This document shows, piece after piece, positions 53,212 through 57,213 of a stretch of 64,000 nt of DNA. This stretch comes from Victivallales bacterium (lineage in GTDB: Bacteria > Verrucomicrobiota > Lentisphaeria > Oligosphaerales > Oligosphaeraceae). The notes below the pieces were generated by a model. The model did no database searches. It had not been told where the DNA came from and saw only the letters and a program-made list of their open reading frames with translations. Both the position numbers and the translations under genes were made by a program. Position 1 is the first letter of the stretch. Every line of letters starts with the position of its first letter. The stretch covers positions 124,001 through 188,000 of the forward strand of contig JAFXUD010000062.1 of NCBI GenBank assembly GCA_017535315.1. The letters are read 5' to 3'.

Positions 53212-54534
53212 TTACCCCATGAAAAGACCGCCGTCAATGGAGATGACTTGGCCTGTTATGTAGTCGGCCTCGTCTGAGCAGAGGAAGGCGACTAGGGCGG
53301 CGACGTCCTGCGGTTTGCCAAGGCGGCGTGTGGGGATTTCACGCAGGATATCCTTCATCTTGACAGGCGGGATATTGGCTGTCATGGGGGATTCAATGAA
53401 GCCTGGGCTGACGGCGTTTACACGGATGCCAAGCCCCGCCATCTCTCGGGCGGCAGAGCGTGTCAACCCTACAAGTCCTTCCTTGGCGGCGGCATAGTTG
53501 GCACGGTTGGCAGAGCCCATGCGACCCGCGTCCGAGGCAAGCGAGACAATGCGCCCCCAGCGCTGTCGCGCCATCGGCATGGAGACTTCCCGCATGAGAC
53601 GGAAGGGGGCGTTCAGGTTCAACTCAATGGAGGAGGCCCACTGCTCATCGGTCATAAAGGAAACGGTGGCATCGTTCAGCCGCCCCGCGTTGTTGACTAG
53701 AATGTCAATGCGCCCCCACTTGGCAAGAACATTCTGTACAAGCTTTTTGCATTGTTCGGGTGAGGCGAGGTCGGCTGTGAACACAGCAGCCAGCGCAGGT
53801 GCAAGTTCTTGCGCCAGTGCCTCCGCCTTGGCGGTGTTGCTATTGCTATGAAGCGCCACGGCAATGCCCTTGGCAGATAGCGCACGGGCAATGGCGGAGC
53901 CTATCGCACCCGAAGCCCCCGTTATCAACGCAACACGCTGTCCGATGGCCGTTACAGGCGCGGCAACCTGTGTGGGCTTTGGAACGACTGGAGTGGCCAC
54001 TGCTGGGGCAGGAGACGTGGTTGGTGCTGGTGTAATCGTTGTACCTTGCTTGGAGGCGATGAACTCCTCAACATCCTTGCGGTGGACGGTGTCGCGCTTG
54101 CAAAAGGCGGCGACCTCGTCCAGCGAGATGTTGTTCTGCTTGGCAAAGGCCTTTGCGGCGGGGGCGACCTTGTAGGCGGGCTTCTGTGGTGCGACCTCTG
54201 GGACGATGCCCGACAGGTCGATGGAGAGCGCATTTGACTGCAAGTGGCTGCGCATCAGCTCCTCGTTGGAAGCGGTTACATCAGGGGCGGCCTCGCCCTC
54301 TGCACCGATGGCGCAAATCACGTAACCGAGCGGGACGGTGCTTTTTTCCTGAGCAAAGATGCCTAGGATGATTCCGTCGCAGGGAGCCTCGAACTCCTCC
54401 ACGACCTTGTCGGAGATAAGCTGCACAAGGATGTCACCTTGTCTGACTTTCTGCCCGACGGAGACAGACCAGGGGCCGATGGTGGCCTCGTCCATGTTTT
54501 CATATAGTTTTGGAAGCTGGATTTGCGTGGACAT
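53212..54534 (-). CDS. Lipoyl domain - peripheral subunit-binding domain - SDR fusion
   Basis: 440 residues from the ATG at 54534; an in-frame TTG at 54555 is rejected. Residues 1-80 are a biotin/lipoyl domain with Lys43 in LISDKVVEEFEAPCDG at the modified position. Residues about 118-162 (PAYKVAPAAKAFAKQNNISL) are an E3-binding domain as in E2 acyltransferases. A Pro/Ala/Thr linker (163-198) leads to a complete FabG-like SDR: TGASGAIG (205-212), NNAG (281-284), Ser334, Tyr347, Lys351 and a family-typical C-terminus. An E2-like swinging arm has thus replaced its acyltransferase with a dehydrogenase. It should be lipoylated and dock on an E3-like protein, but no E1 or E3 gene is in the window. 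Confidence 0.88.
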   Translation of the reverse strand: MSTQIQLPKLYENMDEATIGPWSVSVGQKVRQGDILVQLISDKVVEEFEAPCDGIILGIFAQEKSTVPLGYVICAIGAEGEAAPDVTASNEELMRSHLQSNALSIDLSGIVPEVAPQKPAYKVAPAAKAFAKQNNISLDEVAAFCKRDTVHRKDVEEFIASKQGTTITPAPTTSPAPAVATPVVPKPTQVAAPVTAIGQRVALITGASGAIGSAIARALSAKGIAVALHSNSNTAKAEALAQELAPALAAVFTADLASPEQCKKLVQNVLAKWGRIDILVNNAGRLNDATVSFMTDEQWASSIELNLNAPFRLMREVSMPMARQRWGRIVSLASDAGRMGSANRANYAAAKEGLVGLTRSAAREMAGLGIRVNAVSPGFIESPMTANIPPVKMKDILREIPTRRLGKPQDVAALVAFLCSDEADYITGQVISIDGGLFMG

Positions 54535-54551: not shown

Positions 54552-55454
54552 TCAATGAAGAAGGGAGGCGGTATGGATTCTCAGGCCTTCAGCCAATGGC
54601 ATCTGCGGCATGTAGAGGCCGTCGGCCTTCAGTTTGGCCAGGTCATAGACGCGGTGGCATAGGAAGGAGATGTTTTCAGGATGCTGCGCCTTGTACTCCT
54701 GGATGGGAAGCTCCTTGATTTTTAGCGGGCGATTCAGATAGTCCGCGATAATTTTATAGTAGGTGGCGGATTCGGCGATTTCAGGACCCGCGCAGTTGTA
54801 GAACTGGCAGCAGGACTTGGGAACATCGACGCAACTCAAGATGACCTTTGCCAAATCCTCCGCGTAGATGGGCTGTTGGAGCAGCGTTCCCGCCGCCGCC
54901 AGCTCCAACGGCTCGCCGCGTAGGATACGGGCAATCAGCTCGGGGTCGCGTCCGTGGTTGGGCAGGCAGCCCAGCTTCGAGTTTGGACCGTAGATGTGGC
55001 ATGGACGGAAAATGGTCCAGTGGGAGAAGCCGCCGTTCTGCGCGGCGTTCAGGAACACCTCTTCGCAGCGGCGCTTGTTCGCACCGTAACTGTCATCCGT
55101 CAGAAAATGCATATTGGTTTCGGGCTGCGGGAACTGGCGGAACGCAGGGTCATAGACGAAGTCCGTCGAGATGAAGGCGAAACGGGCGCATCTTGGCGCG
55201 AGGGCGAAGACATCCTGCATGGCGTCGGGTCGCTTGAAGCCGAAGCAATCCACGATGAAGTCGAAGCAGCCTGCATTGGCGATGGCGGCTTCCAGCGAGC
55301 CAGGGGTGAAACGATCCGCCGTAATCTGTTTCAGGCCAGCGGGGATGGGTTTAATGCCACGTGTGACGACAGTCACGTCATGTCCTGCTTCCAACGCCAC
55401 TTTTGCCAATGTGCCGCTTACGAATCCTGTACCGCCGATAAGTAGAATCTTCAT
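54552..55454 (-). CDS. NAD-dependent epimerase/dehydratase (SDR-extended)
   Basis: 300 residues from the ATG at 55454 (SD GGAG); the longer upstream frame overlaps the HPPK fusion. MKILLIGGTGFVSGTLAKVALEAGHDV is the GxxGxxG nucleotide-binding opening. FISTDFVYDPA and DSYGANKRRCEEVF carry the Ser/Thr and YxxxK active-site elements, and TIFRPCHIYGPN and a downstream IYAEDLAKVI follow the extended SDR pattern. It probably works on an NDP-sugar or related metabolite. It ends 17 bases before the lipoyl-SDR fusion. Confidence 0.88.
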   Translation of the reverse strand: MKILLIGGTGFVSGTLAKVALEAGHDVTVVTRGIKPIPAGLKQITADRFTPGSLEAAIANAGCFDFIVDCFGFKRPDAMQDVFALAPRCARFAFISTDFVYDPAFRQFPQPETNMHFLTDDSYGANKRRCEEVFLNAAQNGGFSHWTIFRPCHIYGPNSKLGCLPNHGRDPELIARILRGEPLELAAAGTLLQQPIYAEDLAKVILSCVDVPKSCCQFYNCAGPEIAESATYYKIIADYLNRPLKIKELPIQEYKAQHPENISFLCHRVYDLAKLKADGLYMPQMPLAEGLRIHTASLLH

Positions 55455-55503: not shown

Positions 55504-57213
55504 CTAGGACAAAAGTTTTGGTCCTTCTGGTTTTTCGATGCCTGGGTTGATGGTGAGGTCAGAGCCGATTCTCTTTCCAGCCTCGTATGCATTAGAATCC
55601 AAGTTCACACGCCCATGTGAGATATTCCGTGTGTGCGGGAATCTAGTGTTGTAGTAGCTGTTGAGCTCCTGACTTCCTGCCAATATAATTGCTTTTGTCT
55701 CCTCTTCAAGGGAACCCTGCATCTTTTTCAGCAGGGCTGAGATGACCCCGTAGGCAAAATCCCGTTTGCGACGCTGAAGTGTGGAGGAGATGTGGTTTTT
55801 CTGGCAGAATTTGCCCCACTCCAACTCAATGTGCATGAGTATGCTATCGCGCACGTACTGCGCAATCTTTACATTGCGGACGGTTCCGCACATAAAGAAC
55901 TGCCTGCATTCGGAGGCTGTCTTGTGGCCGTAGCGTTTTGTCGTGATAGCGGGGACATTGACCATAATGGTGGTGATGGAAAACATCTCGCGCAGAAAAT
56001 GCGCCATCATCCGCTCATCCAACTGGATGGTGCCCCTAGGCTGCCCCAGGCCAACCGTAACGTACTGTTCCTTCTGATTCAGATTCTCCTCGCTGATACC
56101 GTACTTTGCCATGATATCGACAGCTTTGGAGAGAGCCACCTCCGCCTCGTGTTCATCGCCTTTCTCCGCCAGCACCAGTAGCTTGCGGACTCGCTCAATA
56201 AGTGGGTCCGTCTTTTCATCCTGTTCCATTCCGAGGCATGCGTCCAGCGTTTGGTAGTTATCCCCCGCAGAGGGATTCGCGCCGATACGTCGGCACATTT
56301 CGTGGAAGGTCTTGCCGTGCGGCATCTCACCATCGGCCTCAGGGCAGAGGAAATGGACGAGCTGGTGTGCAACCTCATGGTAGAAGACATCGAGAACCGC
56401 ATACCACGGATGCTCCGTTATTAACTCATAACTGATGGTGATTCTGTTTTGCGTCGGCGAATACCATCCGTGCTTGGTCTTGCTTTCGGCAAAGTCAATG
56501 CTGGGTTGTAGAACTTTCTGCGCCTCGTATCGTTTCAAGTTGCCGTAATGGACGATGTATTCCCATTCGCTTTTCAGCTTGTCGGCGGCCAGTTCAATGA
56601 AGGCGGGAAAGGGGGGAAGCATATAGAGTGGGAGAGGCTCTGGTTTCTTGTCTTCATCTTGAACAAGGCATGATTTCCCTGGATTACTGTTCCAAAGATT
56701 AAAGACGTTCACCCCGTTTTTCTGCTTCAACTCTTCCAACGTCTGTTTGGTTTTAAGCTGTCTTATGAACTGATTCAACGTGCTTTTAAAGCCAGGTATA
56801 AGGGTGTCGCTTGGCAGTAACTCGCTCAGAGGCTCCAGGACAAAGAGGCGCTGGTGCATCCTCGGGTGGGGGATGGTGAGATTGGGAAGGGAAATCTGCT
56901 GATTGTCGAAGAGCAGGATATCCAGATCAATGGGACGGCTTTCACGGCTGCTGTGAATGGCAGGACGGCCAAGTTGTCTTTCAATACCTTGGCAGAACTC
57001 CAGAAGCTCCAGCGGGGTACCATCGAATGTGGCGGTGAGGGCCGTGTTCTTGAAGTCAGGGGTACCTGGCACGCAATCAACTGGCTTGGTGGTGTAGATG
57101 CGTGCAGATTTGATGTCGCAGAGTTTTTGTGAAAGCAGGACAATTGCCTTGCGAAAGTATTCCTCTGTGTTGCCTATATTTCCTCCCAAGGCAATGGCAA
57201 CATGATGGGTCAT
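55504..57213 (-). CDS. folK: HPPK (FolK) fused to a SprT-like metalloprotease and DUF2786 region
   Basis: 569 residues in one uninterrupted frame from the ATG at 57213. Residues 1-145 are a full 6-hydroxymethyl-7,8-dihydropterin pyrophosphokinase: VAIALGGNIGNTEEYFRKA, ARIYTTKPVD, RPIDLDILLFDN and IPHPRMHQRLFVLEPL. Residues about 200-320 are SprT-like, with HEVAH (279-283) and a third ligand candidate His299 in HGKTFHEMC. Residues about 338-378 match DUF2786 (ERVRKLLVLAEKGDEHEAEVA and ISEENL), followed by a helical tail to the end. The middle and end resemble phage- and Bacteroidetes-type SprT/DUF2786 proteins. It is unclear why a folate enzyme is joined to them; no frameshift or internal stop is seen. 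Confidence 0.85.
   Translation of the reverse strand: MTHHVAIALGGNIGNTEEYFRKAIVLLSQKLCDIKSARIYTTKPVDCVPGTPDFKNTALTATFDGTPLELLEFCQGIERQLGRPAIHSSRESRPIDLDILLFDNQQISLPNLTIPHPRMHQRLFVLEPLSELLPSDTLIPGFKSTLNQFIRQLKTKQTLEELKQKNGVNVFNLWNSNPGKSCLVQDEDKKPEPLPLYMLPPFPAFIELAADKLKSEWEYIVHYGNLKRYEAQKVLQPSIDFAESKTKHGWYSPTQNRITISYELITEHPWYAVLDVFYHEVAHQLVHFLCPEADGEMPHGKTFHEMCRRIGANPSAGDNYQTLDACLGMEQDEKTDPLIERVRKLLVLAEKGDEHEAEVALSKAVDIMAKYGISEENLNQKEQYVTVGLGQPRGTIQLDERMMAHFLREMFSITTIMVNVPAITTKRYGHKTASECRQFFMCGTVRNVKIAQYVRDSILMHIELEWGKFCQKNHISSTLQRRKRDFAYGVISALLKKMQGSLEEETKAIILAGSQELNSYYNTRFPHTRNISHGRVNLDSNAYEAGKRIGSDLTINPGIEKPEGPKLLS

Follow-up and report, generated by a model that had tools for sequence, protein, structure and literature searches.

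The open reading frame at positions 53212–54534 of the window (the whole 64,000-nucleotide stretch of Victivallales DNA analysed) encodes a protein in which a lipoyl domain and a peripheral subunit-binding domain (PSBD) are fused to a FabG-like SDR (ketoreductase), and which belongs to a gene set that appears to be undescribed so far. We propose, with a probability of about one half, that this fusion serves as carrier and reductase subunit in a small ketosynthase pathway that is primed by E1 and of type II, built of discrete subunits. The product of a thiamine-dependent decarboxylase probably enters this small assembly line of the fatty-acid or polyketide type via the lipoyl arm. The parts, their association and linkage, and their intact catalytic and attachment residues are read from the sequences, and from these we infer the flow of acyl groups.

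Structure and distribution of the fusion

The gene is an unbroken frame on the minus strand from 54534 to 53212 (C7:177215-178534 in the genome of the window), with an ATG start and a product of 440 aa that aligns over its length with 23 homologues. The ATG lies 17 bp past the stop of the upstream gene; an alternative TTG start at 54555 is conceivable, and the homologue alignment gives it no backing. The domains run in the order lipoyl domain, PSBD and FabG-like SDR, with Ala/Pro linkers, and the AlphaFold model has three ordered units and disordered linkers at residues 103–118 and 164–197.

The lipoyl domain (residues 1–80; 54295–54534, minus strand; pLDDT about 92) matches PF00364 (Biotin_lipoyl) above cut-off over residues 4–76 (5.5e-12), and its relatives in the PDB are E2p and E2o lipoyl domains. 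The predicted lipoylation site, Lys43 (codon 54406–54408, minus strand), lies in a [ST]DK turn, here SDK; it is invariant or nearly so among homologues, D42-K43 being invariant across 21 N-terminal homologues, and the equivalent Lys is kept in all 17 lipoyl-PSBD (LIP) proteins tested, split ones included. Biotin in place of lipoate was considered and rejected, since the lysine stands in [ST]DK and the closest solved structures are lipoyl domains of E2; no biotinyl A/V-MKM motif is present in this domain. Members of the LplA/LipB family, which attach lipoate, are encoded in the same genome.

The PSBD (residues 121–163; 54046–54174, minus strand) scores 18.1 bits against PF02817 (E3_binding) over residues 124–155 (E 0.003), which is under the cut-off of 23.7, whereas split orthologues pass it with 30.1 and 27.0 bits; the AlphaFold model has a three-helix unit here (helices 125–133, 138–145 and 152–163). 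The homologue in G035 (L085:9968-11611) carries three tandem PSBDs between its lipoyl domain and SDR, and that in G041 apparently at least two. An Ala/Pro-rich linker (residues 164–197; 53944–54045, minus strand) follows, with pLDDT below 50 and a length that differs among homologues. The protein has the lipoyl domain, with a Lys predicted to be lipoylatable, and the PSBD of a 2-oxoacid dehydrogenase E2, and neither it nor the split LIP proteins gave a match to the E2 acyltransferase core (2-oxoacid_dh).

The SDR domain (residues 198–440; 53215–53943, minus strand) matches adh_short_C2 and FabG models over residues 200–439, has a TGxxxGIG-type motif, and takes the FabG fold, the closest solved structure being FabG 2ph3 (TM 0.93 by target length). 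Its catalytic set N306/S334/Y347/K351 is intact, and Ser334 (53533–53535), Tyr347 (53494–53496) and Lys351 (53482–53484, all minus strand) are invariant among the aligned homologues. The score against the FabG equivalog TIGR01830 is below its cut-off (265.5 vs 297.75), and the broader subfamily NF009466 is reached with 255 bits (cut-off 222). An SDR tree places the fusion SDRs and one split SDR, from G061, in a single clade (100/99) close to the operon SDRs described below; in that tree one other SDR of the window's genome (C22, end branch 4.4) is misplaced by its long branch, and the basal fusion rows are unresolved.

An earlier note, made from the letters of the window, had described three intact modules, with a lipoyl Lys in an SDK context and a full FabG-type active site at Ser334, Tyr347 and Lys351, and its reading of the protein agrees with the results above in every checkable detail. 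It had also remarked that E1, E2 and E3 genes are not adjacent; none is encoded by the ORFs flanking the fusion, and all three are present elsewhere in the genome. Elsewhere in the window, a single ORF (55504–57213, minus strand) combines folate HPPK (folK), an SprT-like metalloprotease part, DUF2786 and DUF7168, and a similar gene occupies the same position in the same-genus genome G001.

The search for homologues with the same domain order that the note had advised recovered the fusion in over 20 genomes, each assembled separately; one of them is the 5.73 Mb single-contig genome of the isolate Oligosphaera ethanolica DSM 24202. This rules out misassembly of the ORF from two genes, which the note had raised, and likewise a frameshift; the lipoyl part, lysine included, is retained in the homologues. 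Within the 149 relatives searched, most genera of the family have the fusion, as do several further families of the same order and class; the copies are mostly full length, with a few clipped by contig ends. When one genome was scanned for each species, the fusion was confined to Lentisphaeria, barring two MAGs labelled Verrucomicrobia and a truncated fragment (L109) assigned to Kiritimatiellota; outside Verrucomicrobiota this distribution refers to the fused family and not to the split operon. The genomes are mostly MAGs, in which the absence of a part from a single genome is weak evidence. The lipoyl-PSBD and the SDR of G061 are encoded by two abutting, unfused genes, which indicates a route by which the fusion could arise or be split.

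A conserved operon and its dispersed counterpart

Other Verrucomicrobiota have a 10-gene operon with the order lipoyl-PSBD, SDR, ketosynthase (KS), chain-length-factor-type partner (CLF), E1alpha, E1beta, GT2, ACP, hydrolase, hydrolase. The gene order is the same in five genomes (G122, G123, G187, G331 and G374), and the operon is nearly complete in three more: up to GT in G221, from LIP to E1beta in G033, and on two contigs in G040. The unfused lipoyl-PSBD proteins are about 150–240 aa long and have no acyltransferase domain; none of the operon proteins has an E2 acyltransferase domain, and no dedicated E3 is encoded. For the E1 subunits the best-scoring models are PDH E1 alpha and beta (TIGR03182, NF006667), and the two alpha/beta hydrolases resemble the exosortase-A-associated hydrolases TIGR03100 and TIGR03101, with scores under cut-off.

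The KS and CLF have the features of a type II pair, in that the first KS copies keep Cys-His-His and the second lack the catalytic Cys and the His pair, as CLF-type partners do. Among genomes with the fusion, a KS-CLF gene lies immediately 3′ of it in G003, G005, G008, G015, G023, G029 and G032, where a ketosynthase is joined to a second, truncated ketosynthase-like half. In G034 the order is SDR, then KS-KS, then E1alpha-E1beta of a pyruvate-dehydrogenase-type enzyme.

Five further LIP-SDR loci in other Verrucomicrobiota (L228, L229, L233, L234 and L235) have no KS or E1 nearby, and their SDRs form one clade; given these loci, the LIP-SDR pair may serve elsewhere too, or may be dispersed. In many unfused loci the lipoyl-PSBD gene has a very long neighbouring ORF, about 1,900–2,000 aa, on its upstream side (L226:3259-9267, L228:3148-8961, L229:234-5960, L235:9658-15675, L224:4304-10381); the two scanned gave weak Pfam matches at most.

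The lineage of the window has the same parts in another arrangement, with LIP and SDR fused, KS and CLF fused (the CLF half truncated), and the other genes scattered, giving five dispersed places in the window's genome. An orphan E1alpha-E1beta pair, with the ThDP motif GDG..NN intact in E1alpha, lies outside the window on the same contig, about 72 kb from the fusion (C7:103423-105417); the KS-CLF gene is at C11:8536-10446, GT2 at C36:5746-6594, and an ACP with its phosphopantetheine Ser at C86:150125-150358. That ACP is near a TRAP-transporter gene set, as is the one in G008 (L268:8117-8362, L269:7179-7424). Since these loci are scattered, the partnership in this genome is argued from phylogeny and co-occurrence.

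Co-occurrence was scored in 48 genomes of the order, the window's own included, with Fisher p values that ignore shared ancestry. On that basis LIP-SDR, KS-CLF, E1beta and GT2 are associated pairwise with p from 1e-3 to 7e-7, the values for LIP-SDR being 7e-6 with KS-CLF, 1e-5 with E1beta and 7e-7 with GT. Three or four of the four are found in 29 of the 48 genomes, and none in 13, which include two genera of the same family in their entirety. The dedicated ACP is present in 31 of 49 genomes and absent from all 13 that lack the module. Two members of the order with the fusion and E1beta (G035 and G041) gave no match in the KS-CLF search.

The trees agree with this grouping. The orphan E1beta proteins of the window's lineage form a 100/100 clade whose sister group (94/90) is the operon E1beta, and both stand apart from canonical PDH E1beta; the KS of the window's genome groups with the module KSs, away from its four other KSs and FabF. 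Synteny, co-occurrence and trees together suggest that the fusion, E1alpha-beta, KS-CLF, GT2 and ACP form one module. The genome also carries a complete PDH set, E2-E3-E1(fused), at C22:84654-90259, and the module is thus not the cell's sole PDH-type system.

A second orphan E1alpha-E1beta pair (L123:33-2733, G000:C21) has an SDR gene right after it and a GcvH-like gene about 5 kb off; it was rejected as the partner of the fusion because its E1beta falls outside the operon clade. Also set aside was the idea that the module is a general replacement for FabH: among the 149 relatives, genomes with the module and genomes lacking it both have strong PF08541 matches, and FabH presence and the module are uncorrelated (p 0.75). 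In the window's own genus the PF08541 match is weak, and a replacement of FabH may hold there. Elsewhere in the same genome, L079 (G000:C49:180000-199900) is an aryl-polyene-like cluster with several KS, SDR, ACPs, dehydratase-like proteins, an AMP-ligase-like protein, an acyltransferase and a large exporter.

Proposed acyl flow and alternative readings

In the proposed pathway, the PSBD would recruit the E1 heterotetramer, and also E3 for re-oxidation; E1 would decarboxylate a 2-oxoacid and reductively acylate the lipoyl arm; swinging on a flexible linker, the arm would then reach the KS-CLF. Because the set lacks an E2 acyltransferase, the KS Cys is the natural acyl acceptor, and would take the acyl group as primer in place of that enzyme. 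Malonyl-ACP would add C2, and the SDR would reduce the 3-keto group to 3-hydroxyacyl-ACP, the expected product given that neither a dehydratase nor an enoyl reductase is among the operon genes. By analogy with tetrameric FabG, an SDR tetramer may serve as the oligomeric core, with arms and binding domains radiating outward. Our guess is that the GT2/hydrolase part uses the short 3-hydroxyacyl product for a glycoconjugate of the envelope or of an exopolysaccharide.

Somewhat short of even odds, we would go further and let the lipoyl arm donate acyl groups straight to the KS without CoA, with E1 priming a type II line of the fatty-acid or polyketide kind, the KS-CLF replacing the E2 acyltransferase, and, in Victivallales-type bacteria, the ketoreductase tetramer having become the core of the complex. 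The earlier note had suggested that an acyl or keto intermediate might be channelled from the arm to the ketoreductase. The proposed route likewise passes the acyl group towards the ketoreductase, but with a KS probably in between: the reductase probably acts after the ketosynthase rather than directly on the acyl-lipoyl group. More broadly, the note's domain reading holds, whereas its interpretation was formed with the partners E1alpha-beta, KS-CLF, ACP and GT2, one operon elsewhere, out of its view. It had also proposed to look for a companion E3; an E3 gene is present in the separate PDH set at C22, and the operon has no dedicated one.

Other readings of the same parts were weighed against this one. 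E1 might instead cleave a ketose phosphate in the manner of a transketolase; as in QncN/QncL/QncM and SclQ1-4, the arm would then hand the ACP a glycolyl or comparable unit, on which KS-CLF and SDR would act. A two-component E1, a lipoyl carrier and a dedicated ACP are common to that route and the module, and sequence cannot tell the E1 substrate; we nevertheless regard this as unlikely, as the operon LIP lacks the acyltransferase domain that the Qnc/Scl systems have, and the E1 subunits score best as those of PDH. The lipoyl-PSBD might also merely dock the ketoreductase on E1/E3 or on a PDH-type complex, for scaffolding or NAD(P)H channelling, with an arm that does not carry the KS substrate. 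The PSBD is a docking module, present three times in G035, and a complete PDH with E3 is at hand in the genome, yet the lipoyl Lys is retained in every LIP protein tested and the operon has its own E1 pair and KS-CLF, not an E2 or E3. Anchoring of a reductase to an E3 complex, as the earlier note had also envisaged, would leave KS, CLF and ACP unexplained, and we think docking quite improbable.

The conserved KS, CLF and ACP also weigh against E1 as a carboligase forming acyloins or diketones, a reading in which the lipoyl arm would accept or donate the acyl group and the SDR would reduce the acyloin or dione like butanediol dehydrogenases. The SDR does match the butanediol dehydrogenase model, under cut-off, and the E1alpha-E1beta-SDR set at G000:C21 is a second such grouping; the best matches of the fusion's SDR, however, are FabG and acetoacetyl reductases, and the chance of this reading is slight. 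That the protein is an ordinary FabG with an acquired, dead lipoyl domain, the fusion being functionally meaningless, is scarcely credible. A neutral fusion of neighbouring genes could occur, as the abutting LIP and SDR of G061 illustrate, but conservation across several families extends to both domains, to the Lys and to the catalytic residues, and the fusion is lost jointly with KS-CLF, E1, GT and ACP.

The preferred reading, an E1-primed ketosynthase pathway, gives a reason for the fusion, and offers a testable system in the isolate Oligosphaera ethanolica. It also points to a pathway, so far unexplored, that co-occurrence links to GT2 and, in intact operons, to hydrolases like those of exosortase systems.

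Comparison with known systems

No description of the gene set was found in the literature searched, which mostly excludes subscription journals, in line with the earlier note, which knew of no characterised example; novelty is thus provisional. Nor did any paper there bring together as many as four of type II PKS, PDH E1, lipoyl, ketosynthase and ACP, or describe a fusion of a lipoyl domain and an SDR.

The two-component ThDP enzymes NapB/NapD reportedly work with a lipoyl domain and an ACP, as QncN/QncL do. Of the characterised routes found, the closest is that of QncN/QncL/QncM, to which SclQ1-4 are homologous. There a C2 unit is supplied by a two-component ThDP enzyme and an ACP working with a lipoyl domain, and the lipoyl domain is followed by an E2-like acyltransferase domain, which is present in SclQ4 (PMC6335953). 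Like these, the module has a two-component ThDP enzyme, a lipoyl domain and an ACP that would supply an acyl unit to an assembly line, together in the operon and co-occurring in the window's own genome. Unlike the Qnc, Nap and Scl systems, which feed NRPS, it has a KS-CLF and a fused ketoreductase, and the acyltransferase domain after the lipoyl domain is absent; the passage of the acyl group from the lipoyl group to the KS is the step that we infer, where QncN/L/M uses its acyltransferase domain.

For the KS-CLF and ACP, the nearest named relatives appear to be AmcF and AmcB, with scores below curated cut-offs (66 bits vs 80 for the operon ACP against AmcB, its best score; the KS match to AmcF likewise under cut-off). 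AmcF-AmcG and AmcB belong to the type II PKS-like biosynthesis of cispentacin (PMC10698177). The module resembles them in its KS-CLF-like heterodimer plus ACP, and differs in that its KS is still closer to FabF models and no lipoyl or E1 part is in the match.

The SDR part is like FabG 3-oxoacyl-ACP reductases in its fold, its catalytic residues and its 34–46% identity to solved FabG-like structures, and unlike them in its N-terminal lipoyl-PSBD arm and in scoring under the FabG equivalog cut-offs. AcoC (NF011457) also follows its lipoyl(-PSBD) part with a domain other than the usual acyltransferase, as does an AcoC-like lipoyl-PSBD-alpha/beta hydrolase protein of a deltaproteobacterial MAG (L112:9974-11284); both have a hydrolase fold where the fusion has an SDR. 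The split lipoyl-PSBD scores best against this same acetoin dehydrogenase E2 model (77 bits vs a cut-off of 307).

With the E2 of PDH, OGDH and BCDH, the fusion shares a lipoyl domain, flexible linkers and a PSBD in the same order, and its partner E1alpha/E1beta is of the PDH type; in contrast, the acyltransferase core is replaced by a FabG-like SDR, or is missing in the split gene, and the operon has no dedicated E3. A 2-oxoacid dehydrogenase complex and an ACP assembly line are normally joined only via acetyl- or acyl-CoA, whereas the conserved operon of E1, lipoyl, KS-CLF, ketoreductase and ACP without an E2 acyltransferase suggests a direct hand-over between the two.
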